IMG/VR virus record: IMGVR_UViG_3300045049_000339
Location: 1 to 64,000 of that record
Length of the DNA: 64,000 nucleotides
Strand: one strand, 5' to 3'
Origin: a virus
Both the position numbers and the translations under genes were made by a program. Shown here piece by piece: positions 58,640 through 61,126 of the stretch. The notes beneath the pieces are model-generated. The model had not been told where the DNA came from and searched no databases. It was given only the letters and a program-made list of their open reading frames with translations. Within the stretch, counting starts at the first letter, position 1. Every line of letters begins with the position of its first letter.

Positions 58640-58668
58640 TTGCGCACCGCCGTCGGTGCGCGTAGTGT
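58640..58668 (+). promoter_or_regulatory. promoter of the permuted-RNA array
   Basis: TTGCGC (58640-58645), 17-bp spacer, TAGTGT (58663-58668). GCGCACCG and CGGTGCGC (8 bp, 4-base loop) fill the -35 region and spacer. The expected start (about 58674) falls at the first bases of RNA copy a. Confidence 0.75.
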
Positions 58669-58671
58669 TCT

Positions 58672-58831
58672 GGGTGTCGGAGGAACCGGGGTAAGGAACA
58701 CGGTTACTTCATTTGACTGGATATCAAAAGGTTGTGGGTTCGAGTCCCACCGGCTCCACTTGTGGGGCTGTAGCTCAATCGGTAGAGAAAACGTGCCCGA
58801 GTTCACTTTGATATCGGTTCCCTCGACACCC
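58672..58831 (+). ncRNA. permuted tRNA-like RNA, copy a
   Basis: Closing helix P1: 58672-58688 with 58815-58831 (17 bp, two non-Watson-Crick pairs). P2: GAACACGG (58696-58703) with CCGAGTTC (58797-58804). Between them is an anticodon arm TTTGA-CTGGATA-TCAAA, T-arm GTGGG-TTCGAGT-CCCAC and acceptor 3' CGGCTCC-A. A 5-base linker leads to acceptor 5' GGGGCTG (58764-58770, 7/7 pairs) and a D-arm GCTC...GAGA. Anticodon-position bases read GGA. Confidence 0.75.
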
Positions 58832-58839
58832 ACAGACTT

Positions 58840-58995
58840 CCTGTCAGGGGTACAGGCAACGGCTACTTCGCTTCGAAATGCGGGTATCTGTGCAAACAGA
58901 GTGCGGGTTCGAATCCCGTCCGGCTCTTCGCTGAGTCGGTAGACGAATTGGCAAAGTCACCTACGTATCCGATGCCGACTTAGACATCTGACAGG
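58840..58995 (+). ncRNA. permuted tRNA-like RNA, copy b
   Basis: P1: CCTGTCAG (58840-58847) with CTGACAGG (58988-58995). P2: GGCAACGG (58855-58862) with CCGATGCC (58969-58976). Inside are an anticodon-like arm whose loop is 8 bases (TTCGAAAT), a long variable arm TCTGT-GCAA-ACAGA, T-arm GCGGG-TTCGAAT-CCCGT and acceptor 3' CCGGCTC. Then come a linker, acceptor 5' GAGTCGG (58933-58939, 7/7) and D-stem GAC/GTC. Class II type (Ser- or Leu-like). Confidence 0.75.
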
Positions 58996-59007
58996 GCTAA
59001 CTTCATA

Positions 59008-59149
59008 TCTGTCCGGGGTACAGGCTGCGGTTACTTCACCTGTTAAGTGAGAGGTCGCAGGTTCGAATCCTGTCGTGGGGTGATAAGCCCCATGTAGCTC
59101 AGTTTGGGAGAGCGCTAACGTTCCCGCTGCCGCTTCGATATCGGACAGA
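59008..59149 (+). ncRNA. permuted tRNA-like RNA, copy c (Asn GUU)
   Basis: P1: TCTGTCCG (59008-59015) with CGGACAGA (59142-59149). P2: GGCTGCGG (59023-59030) with CCGCTGCC (59124-59131). Anticodon arm TTCAC-CTGTTAA-GTGAG with anticodon GTT; T-arm GCAGG-TTCGAAT-CCTGT; acceptor 3' CGTGGGG-T; 6-base linker; acceptor 5' CCCCATG (59088-59094, 7/7); D-arm GCTC...GAGC. All arms are canonical apart from order, the best case in the array. Confidence 0.8.
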
Positions 59150-59164
59150 ACACACAAACTTCAT

Positions 59165-59305
59165 AGCTGCCTGGGGTAAAGACAACGGTTACTTCCATGC
59201 GGAGGAGGTAGCGCAGGTTCGAATCCTGCCGGGGGCCTACGGGCTCCTGTCGTCTAGCGGCCCAGGACGCCTACGTTTCCGTTATCGCTTTGATATCAGG
59301 CAGCT
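59165..59305 (+). ncRNA. permuted tRNA-like RNA, copy d
   Basis: P1: AGCTGCCTG (59165-59173) with CAGGCAGCT (59297-59305). P2: GACAACGG (59181-59188) with CCGTTATC (59279-59286). Anticodon arm CTTCC-ATGCGGA-GGAGG (bases GCG), T-arm GCAGG-TTCGAAT-CCTGC, acceptor 3' CGGGGGC-C, 5-base linker, acceptor 5' GCTCCTG (59243-59249, 7/7 with wobbles), D-arm GTCT...GGAC. Confidence 0.75.
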
Positions 59306-59309
59306 TGCA

Positions 59310-59397
59310 GAACCCATCACCGGGGTACTGCTCACGGTTACTTCACCCTTCAAAGATGAAAAAACACCGTGAGCGCTCTGAAATCGGTGGTGGGTTC
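59310..59397 (+). ncRNA. short family member e without tRNA module
   Basis: P1: GAACCCATCACCG (59310-59322) with 59385-59397 (13 bp, one wobble). P2: GCTCACGGT (59330-59338) with ACCGTGAGC (59366-59374). GGGGTA and GCTCTGAAATC occupy the conserved internal-loop positions. The tRNA-like module is replaced by a 27-base loop. Ends 46 bases before the Ro60 start codon. Confidence 0.75.
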
Positions 59398-59443
59398 TGC
59401 TTAATGGCAAGCCCAGTGCCATCAGGAAAAGGAGGAACAGACG

Positions 59444-61126
59444 ATGGCCAAGTTTAACCAGAAGACCCGTACCTGGGAGAACCAGGGAGGTTCGGCCTTT
59501 CCCGCCGCAGGAACGAAGCGGCAGACCACCACGACCACGAACCACACCGGCCGTGCCGTGTGGAACCTGGACGACAAGACCAACCTGTTCTTCCGCGCCA
59601 CGTCCGCCTTCGCCGGTCAGGACACGTACTACGAGAAAGGCGCCAAGCGCGACGCCGAGGCCATCGCCTTGGTCCGAAAGCTCGCTATCGGCGACTGGGA
59701 CTGGACGGCGAAGTTCCTCGTCTGGCTGCGCGCCGAGGGCAACATGCGCACCGCGCCGGTCATGCTGGCTGTCGAGGCAGTTCGTGCACGCCTGGAGAAG
59801 AAGCTGCACCCGGCTGCCGGTGAGATGTCTCACCGTGCGCTCATCGCGGCTGTTCTCCAGCGCGCGGATGAGCCGGGCGAGATGCTCGCCTACTACGAGA
59901 ACGTCGTCGGCCGCACCATGCCGAAGGCGATCAAGCGTGGTATCGGTGACGCGGCCAAGCGCATGTACAACGAGCGCAACTTCCTGCGGTACGACAGTTC
60001 GTCCAAGGCCATCCGTTTCGGCGGCGTCGCCGAGATGGCTCAGATGCCGAAGACGCACGGCTGGCAGTCCGACCTGATCACCTACGCCATTGGTGAGCAG
60101 CACCACCGTGAGCAGGACATCCCTGACACGTTGGCGGCACTTCGTGCACGCAATGAGCTGAACAAGATGGACGCCAGCGACCGTCACGTTTTCGCGAAGA
60201 GCGCACTGGGCGGCCACATCATCAACCGCACCAAGCTGGACCTGGCCATGGCCGGGCAGTGGGAGTGGTTCATGAGTTGGCTCGGTGATGCGAAGGGTGC
60301 CAAGGCCATCACGACGAAGGAGAAGTGGACGTTCGCCGCCCAGCGCATGGGCATCATGGCGGTCGTCCGCAACCTCCGGAACTTCGACGAGGCCGGTCTC
60401 AAGACGGGCGACAGCATCGTCACCGAGATCAGTGGTCGGCTCACGAACGAGGAGCAGATCGCGAAGTCCCGCATGTTCCCGTTCCGGTTCTTCACGGCGC
60501 ACTTGCAGCTCAAGTCCGTCACGTGGGCGGCCGGTCTGGAGGTGGCGCTTCAGCACTCGCTCCAGAACCTTCCGGAGCTGCCGGGCCGGACGCTGATCCT
60601 CGTCGACACCTCGGGGTCGATGCAGCAGAAGCTCTCGGCCAAGTCCGAGATGTCCTACGCCCAGGCCGCCGCACTGTTCGGCTGTGCCCTGAAGATCAAG
60701 AACCCGGACGGGGTCAACCTGTGGGGGTTCGCCGACGGGCAGTTCGAGGCGCAGGCCACCACGGGTCACAGCGTTCTGCGCTGTGCCGAGGAGTTCTGCC
60801 GCCAGAACGGCCTGGTCGGTCACGGAACGCAGATGGAGGCGGCCGTCCGTGCCACGTACGCGGGGCACGACCGAGTCATCATCATCTCCGACATGCAGGC
60901 GTTCCCGACCGGCGGTTACAGCCGGTACGGGTACAGCTACATGACCGGTGACGTCGCTGGGGCTGTTCCGGCGCACATCCCGGTATACGGTTTCAACCTG
61001 GCCAGCGGCTCCACCACACCGCTGGGCAAGGGCAACCGGCACAGCCTTGGTGGCCTCTCGGATGTGACGTTCAAGCTGATCCCTCAGCTTGAGAAGGTCG
61101 GCCGGGGTTCGTGGCCCTGGGAGTAA
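59444..61126 (+). CDS. rsr-like: Ro60/TROVE-domain RNA-binding protein
   Basis: 560 residues (AAAAGGAGG upstream). The N-terminal ~330 residues form the helical-repeat TROVE ring (FFRATSAFAGQDTYYEKGAK, LRAEGNMRTAPVMLAVEAVR, PKAIKRGIGDAAKRMYNERN). The C-terminus is a vWA domain with MIDAS LVDTSGSM, GHGTQMEA and IISDMQAFP. Ro60 rings hold Y RNAs and misfolded RNAs; bacterial homologues (Rsr) bind tRNA-mimicking Y RNAs encoded next to them. Five structured RNAs directly upstream are the likely partners. Confidence 0.9.
   Translation: MAKFNQKTRTWENQGGSAFPAAGTKRQTTTTTNHTGRAVWNLDDKTNLFFRATSAFAGQDTYYEKGAKRDAEAIALVRKLAIGDWDWTAKFLVWLRAEGNMRTAPVMLAVEAVRARLEKKLHPAAGEMSHRALIAAVLQRADEPGEMLAYYENVVGRTMPKAIKRGIGDAAKRMYNERNFLRYDSSSKAIRFGGVAEMAQMPKTHGWQSDLITYAIGEQHHREQDIPDTLAALRARNELNKMDASDRHVFAKSALGGHIINRTKLDLAMAGQWEWFMSWLGDAKGAKAITTKEKWTFAAQRMGIMAVVRNLRNFDEAGLKTGDSIVTEISGRLTNEEQIAKSRMFPFRFFTAHLQLKSVTWAAGLEVALQHSLQNLPELPGRTLILVDTSGSMQQKLSAKSEMSYAQAAALFGCALKIKNPDGVNLWGFADGQFEAQATTGHSVLRCAEEFCRQNGLVGHGTQMEAAVRATYAGHDRVIIISDMQAFPTGGYSRYGYSYMTGDVAGAVPAHIPVYGFNLASGSTTPLGKGNRHSLGGLSDVTFKLIPQLEKVGRGSWPWE

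Follow-up and report, generated by a model that had tools for sequence, protein, structure and literature searches.

An array of five putative YrlA-kind Y RNAs, four of them carrying permuted tRNA modules, lies upstream of a phage Ro60 gene

We analysed a stretch of 64,000 nucleotides (the window) of the IMG/VR virus record IMGVR_UViG_3300045049_000339. The record is 107,716 bases long and very likely belongs to a tailed phage, because its proteins match phage tape measure, DNA primase and DNA polymerase families. In the window, an array of five structured elements (copies a to e, 58668-59400) lies upstream of a gene for Ro60 and on the same strand. The boundaries of the elements were set by stem extension. 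The features of the locus are the following:

58668-58835, + strand: putative Y RNA copy a, with outer stem P1 (20/23 pairs), internal loop, inner stem P2 and a permuted transfer RNA (tRNA) module
within copy a, + strand: anticodon arm 58712-58728 (loop CTGGATA), T arm 58734-58750, acceptor 58751-58757/58764-58770, D arm 58773-58788
58839-58996, + strand: putative Y RNA copy b, with a permuted class II tRNA module that has a long variable arm
59008-59149, + strand: putative Y RNA copy c, with P1 59008-59016/59141-59149 and P2 59023-59030/59124-59131
within copy c, + strand: anticodon arm 59035-59051 (loop CTGTTAA), T arm 59057-59073, acceptor 59074-59080/59088-59094, D arm 59097-59113
59165-59305, + strand: putative Y RNA copy d, with a permuted tRNA module and the anticodon arm CTTCC-ATGCGGA-GGAGG
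59307-59400, + strand: putative Y RNA copy e, minimal form, with P1 (16/16 pairs), P2 (8/8 pairs) and a short hairpin, without tRNA module
59444-61126, + strand: phage Ro60 gene (TROVE and vWA domains), 560 amino acids
61141-61176, strand unassigned: terminator-like hairpin 3′ of Ro60, called in a 16-pair form on the - strand and in a shorter form on the + strand

The elements are built in a common order: P1, an asymmetric internal loop, P2 (often mismatched at its middle), the sequence UUACUUC, and then either a hairpin (copy e) or the tRNA module. The permuted module runs from the anticodon arm through the variable region, the T arm, the 3′ strand of the acceptor, a short loop and the 5′ strand of the acceptor to the D arm, and is followed by ACGU-like letters and the return strands of the stems. 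The internal loop reads GGGGTA on its 5′ side and CTTTGATATC on its 3′ side in the window, and GGTGCGNA and GACCTTGATCTC, respectively, in relatives. A preliminary description of this DNA had proposed a five-copy array, and this holds. Indeed, the pattern GGGTANNGNNNNCGGYTACTTC has exactly five matches in the window, all within the array (58689-59344), and when up to three mismatches are allowed six matches are found, as compared to a mean of 0.77 and a maximum of 3 in shuffles. Furthermore, the stems of each copy fit their own partner best, with 8-9 of 9 pairs in P1 and 7-8 of 8 in P2, against means of 3.8 and 5.5 with the partners of other copies. The geometry put forward in the same description, a tRNA-like module joined to the stem by its anticodon side, is not what we found: the tRNA is broken between the D arm and the anticodon arm, the anticodon hairpin is kept in copies a, c and d as well as in b (where it has an 8-nt loop), and copy e has no tRNA module. 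An unconstrained fold of copy b contains P1, P2 and the anticodon, variable, T, acceptor and D arms, while free folds of a, c and d miss some arms, which rest on a covariance model. A coding reading of the array was rejected, since there are stops in all three + frames.

The Ro60 gene begins 43 bases past the end of copy e, rather than the 46 given previously. Its identity, as first proposed, is borne out by a match to PF05731 (TROVE; E 6.1e-11) and by the matches of the Ro60 family profile to solved Ro60/Rsr chains (9nen, 9.9e-73; 1yvp, 3.3e-72; 2nvo, 1.4e-71). Residues D388, S390, S392, T462 and D483, which we take to have a metal-site role, are invariant in an alignment of 13 proteins.

We produced two covariance models from actinobacterial chromosomal elements, with no element from the window in either of them: R1 from tRNA-bearing elements (35 aligned of 40 selected anticodon-type elements) and R2 from minimal ones (27 of 28). 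With E-values that are rough by the tool's own statement, R1 matched copies c (110.4 bits, 1.7e-27), d (101.2 bits, 4.9e-25), b (82.0 bits, 5.9e-20) and a (68.6 bits, 2.2e-16, over 58680-58823) in full length, the next matches in the window being mostly parts of ordinary tRNA genes, and R2 matched copy e (44.5 bits, 3.1e-8, over 59314-59393), with the next match in the window at 0.28. Across the whole record, R1 ranks copies a to d as its top four. Training elements were selected to be diverse and to pass a stem-score filter, a choice that biases both covariation tests towards paired cells; in the R1 set both sides change in 26 of 38 pairs and 94.7% of the cells are paired (74.8% in shuffles), and in the minimal set 12 of 17 pairs covary. 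By helix, pairs with changes on both sides amount to 6/9 in P1, 7/8 in P2, 6/7 in the acceptor, 3/4 in the D arm and 2/2 in the inner anticodon stem. The R1 set holds 235 cells changed on both sides, against 68.3 in shuffles, and this signal is lost when the partner is slid. RNAalifold alone recovers the P1, P2, T, acceptor and D helices from the R1 set. It does not recover the anticodon arm from that set, perhaps because the gaps there are not structure-aware.

To count an anticodon arm we required a 5-bp stem with at least 4 pairs and a 7-nt loop, 4-5 nt before the T stem. This geometry is present in 53 of 109 phage elements with a T arm (mean of 13.0 and maximum of 23 with shuffled prefixes) and in 68 of 137 chromosomal ones (mean 13.3, maximum 23). 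Among the 68 chromosomal arms, A38 is found in 65 and U33 in 62, the latter count being raised somewhat because the parser prefers U33 when two registers fit equally; the entropy of positions 34-36 is 1.7-1.9 bits. One slot of a chromosomal array could be compared across 27 species, in which the same P2 lies at about the same place and which were collected with a pattern that fixed P2, UUACUUC and the T loop, not the anticodon arm. C32, U33 and A38 occur in 27/27, stem changes are compensated, and seven different triplets occupy this orthologous position of the chromosomal relatives, where a decoding tRNA would hold a fixed anticodon. Because the triplet is free while C32, U33 and A38 are kept, tRNA mimicry is favoured over decoding: to judge from these sequences, an anticodon loop seems to be needed, but no particular anticodon.

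Decoding would nonetheless be the outcome if these were permuted tRNA genes, in which the P1/P2 scaffold is removed, the anticodon arm attached to the end of the D arm, and the acceptor loop opened to give translating tRNAs. Reversed-order tRNA genes have been described (PMC10085705). Of the phage elements with an anticodon arm, 47 could be rotated in script; ARAGORN called 46 of these as tRNA after rotation, and none of the 109 phage module sequences was called in native order. Within the array, the rotated modules of copies b, c and d were called as tRNA, tRNA-Asn(gtt) and tRNA-Arg(gcg), respectively, and a tRNA scan of the window in genomic order yielded a doubtful tRNA-SeC on copy a only and nothing on b to e. 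However, ARAGORN tolerates shuffled anticodon arms, still calling 37.35 of 47 rotated modules on average; rotation is hence a weak test of the arm, and the claim for it rests on geometry, covariation and the 27-species slot. Bacteria seldom use A34 triplets, and a serine anticodon is unexpected on a body with a short variable loop. Here A34 triplets are present, and bodies with short variable loops bear the serine anticodons GCT, TGA and GGA. Also opposed to translating tRNAs are the free change of the triplet at a fixed slot, the absence of a tRNA from copy e and many other elements, and the conservation of P1, loop and P2 in all elements, whether they bear a tRNA or not. We see a very slight chance that these are tRNA genes.

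The anticodon arm might also be there passively, if modules are recaptured from real tRNA genes, the arm fills the junction and only the elbow of D, T and acceptor arms matters, as in YrlA. This is consistent with the failure of about half of the T-arm elements in the anticodon-arm test, with the resemblance of many of them to ordinary YrlA, and with a module likeness that is no higher within a locus (0.26) than between loci (0.28). On the other hand, drift would not keep C32, U33 and A38 at a fixed slot while the triplet changes, and the anticodon stem shows compensated changes, with both sides altered in 10 and 7 sequences. We therefore hold passive leftovers to be unlikely, although they deserve serious weight.

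Ro60 relatives are present in 85 phage records. The first 19 related phage or virus loci (L002-L020) all carry elements near Ro60, found by the parser or by a model. A blind search of IMG/VR with the motif TGCGNAGN{3,7}CGGTTACTTC, derived from relatives and using no protein information, gave at least 120 loci; among those listed, Ro60 is present in 58/120 and lies directly downstream on the same strand in 56/120, and many of the loci without Ro60 are expected, from the length of the pattern, to be chance matches. Among the matches listed, each of the 73 motif occurrences in loci with Ro60 shares the strand of that gene, and the P1/P2 fold is found in 64 of 71 occurrences upstream of Ro60 versus 6 of 32 in loci without it. 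Some loci share contigs (L003/L121, L035/L124 and L042/L050), and L079 is a possible duplicate of L010 (phage BRock). A scan of actinobacterial genomes gave at least 80 chromosomal loci with Ro60, and in 78 of the 80 listed the 1.5 kb upstream holds one or more elements, with 3 the commonest number (range 1-5); at L154 the parser found no upstream element, and a YrlA match lies about 1.6 kb upstream. We rejected a phage-only origin, since chromosomal loci carry the same elements. The family comprises minimal hairpins, YrlA-like modules and full tRNAs that have a separate anticodon arm, and the window holds four of the full-tRNA type plus one minimal element. In the YrlA-like type, as read from the sequences, the anticodon stem seems to have fused with the Y stem, and a small CUUC..GAA hairpin is present as well. 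The internal loop is slightly more alike within a locus (0.55) than between loci (0.48); these values are too close, and we make no claim of co-evolution between loop and Ro60.

Other observations were made in the same sets. Streptomyces phage Kela has an annotated RNA ligase gene (2118-2870 of locus L014) directly upstream of Ro60. A locus from a metagenome-assembled genome of Micromonosporaceae has more than 20 tRNA genes before Ro60 and is probably a phage contig binned with the host. Two records of 47,334 and 55,026 bases (L130 and L129) have one minimal Y element each, and a whole-record search of both for Ro60 was negative; these elements are possible orphan Y RNAs using the host Ro60, or the records may be fragments. 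In the window itself, a permuted tRNA-like stretch lies between tRNA genes on the + strand (54584-54686; R1 21.3 bits, E 7.7e-4), with a T arm, acceptor, D-like arm and a later anticodon-like arm and without the UUACUUC core. A weak R1 match (11.6 bits) falls inside the tRNA cluster 49549-50003, on the + strand at 49740-49821, where T arm, acceptor-like and D-like pieces can be seen by eye in permuted order.

It had been suggested that a promoter starts transcription at the first bases of copy a. A sigma-70 scan found none, and the sole hint comes from the sister phage L002, where TAGTGT precedes copy a by a similar distance. The accompanying statement that no terminator separates copy e from Ro60 was confirmed, as a scan found no terminator-like site between them on the + strand. 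Read-through from the array into Ro60, the third part of this proposal, is thus possible in the window but is not a conserved rule: a terminator-like hairpin lies between array and Ro60 in two of three relatives scanned (L009 and L012, not L016). The missing terminator and the 43-base gap would also suit an array that serves mainly as a folded 5′ leader controlling the Ro60 message, for instance by binding Ro60 itself. We give this a slight chance, since the hairpins of L009 and L012 part the array from Ro60 and since the elements of record G001 (9790 onward) cannot be a Ro60 leader, the gene (6943-8508) lying before them.

Salmonella YrlA likewise has an end-paired stem beside the Ro60/Rsr gene and D, T and acceptor arms in permuted order (PMC8394870, PMC11472068), and its circular permutation relative to tRNA is already known (PMC11472068). 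YrlA is described as resembling the D, T and acceptor arms; the window adds an anticodon hairpin and five diverse copies, one of them tRNA-less. Like bacterial Y RNAs, the array adjoins Ro60 and its elements pair their ends into a long stem, and the permuted D/T/acceptor domain is present in copies a to d, not in e. The P1-P2 internal loop is conserved in the family and may resemble known Ro60 sites. Vertebrate Y RNAs have a stem with a conserved internal loop near the end stem. The letters appear similar to those of the array; vertebrate Y RNAs have no tRNA module. The Deinococcus Y RNA and RYPER (Rsr, Y RNA and PNPase) offer a Ro60-type protein with a Y RNA able to bring an enzyme to it (PMC7790460, PMC8394870, PMC8058203), whereas the phage set is a tRNA-bearing, multi-member array. 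Circular permutation is also common to permuted tRNA genes and to permuted transfer-messenger RNA (tmRNA; RF04321), but the RNAs of the array keep their ends paired as a Ro60-type stem and have no fixed triplet. A permuted tmRNA was rejected (24.2 of 47 bits on copy a), as were the halves of group I introns or self-cleaving ribozymes that an intron-like layout could suggest, for which Rfam gave no match to the array up to E 5.

Several results weigh against assigning these elements to Y RNAs of the phage Ro60. Folding with known YrlA models, proposed at the outset as a check, left every copy under the cut-off of Rfam YrlA (RF02553, 69 bits): copies a to d score 16.7-35.2 (a, 28.1; c, 35.2) and copy e has no match. 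The relatives searched reach 55.9 at best, and all scores in nine chromosomal loci scanned are below the cut-off. The Rfam Y_RNA model gave no reported match to the array up to E 5, and the window loop GGGGTA departs from the family consensus GGTGCG. Some of the element counts contain errors: of the 72 chromosomal elements counted as lacking a T arm, at least 9 are tRNA types that the parser misread, and some of the phage elements are matches to coding sequence. Finally, when 12 records with model matches and no Ro60 nearby were searched whole, 6 had Ro60 elsewhere and 6 had none, so that the linkage of array and Ro60 is not absolute; some of the records without Ro60 are fragments.

With these points weighed, the best explanation of the whole is an array of five YrlA-kind Y RNAs partnering the phage's own Ro60, to which we give a probability of roughly 80%. 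The proposal of a multi-member Y RNA set for this Ro60 has gained from the R1 and R2 models, covariation, the link between motif and Ro60, and the chromosomal loci; copies a to e are, on sequence evidence, very probably Y RNAs of the adjacent protein. Structure, covariation, family membership, Ro60 linkage and the keeping of U33 and A38 without a fixed triplet are computed. By analogy with known Ro60 biology (PMC7790460, PMC8394870, PMC8058203), Ro60 is most likely bound through the stem part, with the module mimicking tRNA. The five units would be transcribed as one precursor and cut into single Y RNAs, each pairing its ends as P1, continued past the internal loop by P2, and P1, loop and P2 would form the Ro60-binding part. 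Beyond the stem, four RNAs would present a permuted tRNA and the fifth only a small hairpin. The tRNA part may serve as a handle or decoy, drawing proteins that recognise tRNA to Ro60 or keeping them busy; candidates are RNases, modification or repair enzymes and perhaps anticodon nucleases. Enzymes that modify tRNA are reported to accept YrlA as a substrate (PMC8394870), and the tRNA-like domain of YrlA has been proposed to inhibit an anticodon nuclease competitively, though that nuclease does not cut it (PMC7790460). The kept anticodon loop would complete the tRNA mimicry begun by the YrlA elbow, and a role of the anticodon arm as adaptor or decoy is a tentative proposal. More speculative, and in our view rather unlikely, is that actinobacterial and phage Ro60 particles carry libraries of full tRNA look-alikes, loop-like at the anticodon but free in triplet, which together bait or occupy enzymes attacking or processing the anticodon loops of many tRNAs, the phage library blunting defences that target tRNA during infection.

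Phage Ro60 genes are already annotated, and a survey of jumbo phages mentions a tRNA-like partner of TROVE proteins (PMC7824862, PMC9583779). Our literature search did not find anticodon-bearing Y RNAs or phage Y RNA arrays; the primary YrlA papers lay outside it and we do not claim absence from print. Relative to the sources cited, the anticodon-bearing form and the array may be new, the YrlA permutation, the phage Ro60 genes and the tRNA-like TROVE partner being known.

Bacterial Y RNAs are known mostly as mimics of the tRNA elbow, and few of their partners are known. A diverse, tRNA-complete set in host chromosomes and phages provides natural variants that separate the requirements for elbow, anticodon loop and triplet. 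As relatives are common in actinobacteria and their phages, the purpose of tRNA look-alikes becomes testable, and the family, whose scores in the loci searched are under the Rfam cut-off, is a candidate for addition to Rfam. Host attack on tRNA and phage evasion that relies on tRNA are active topics (PMC10264068, PMC11555353), and the array would link phage-carried Ro60 genes to tRNA biology.

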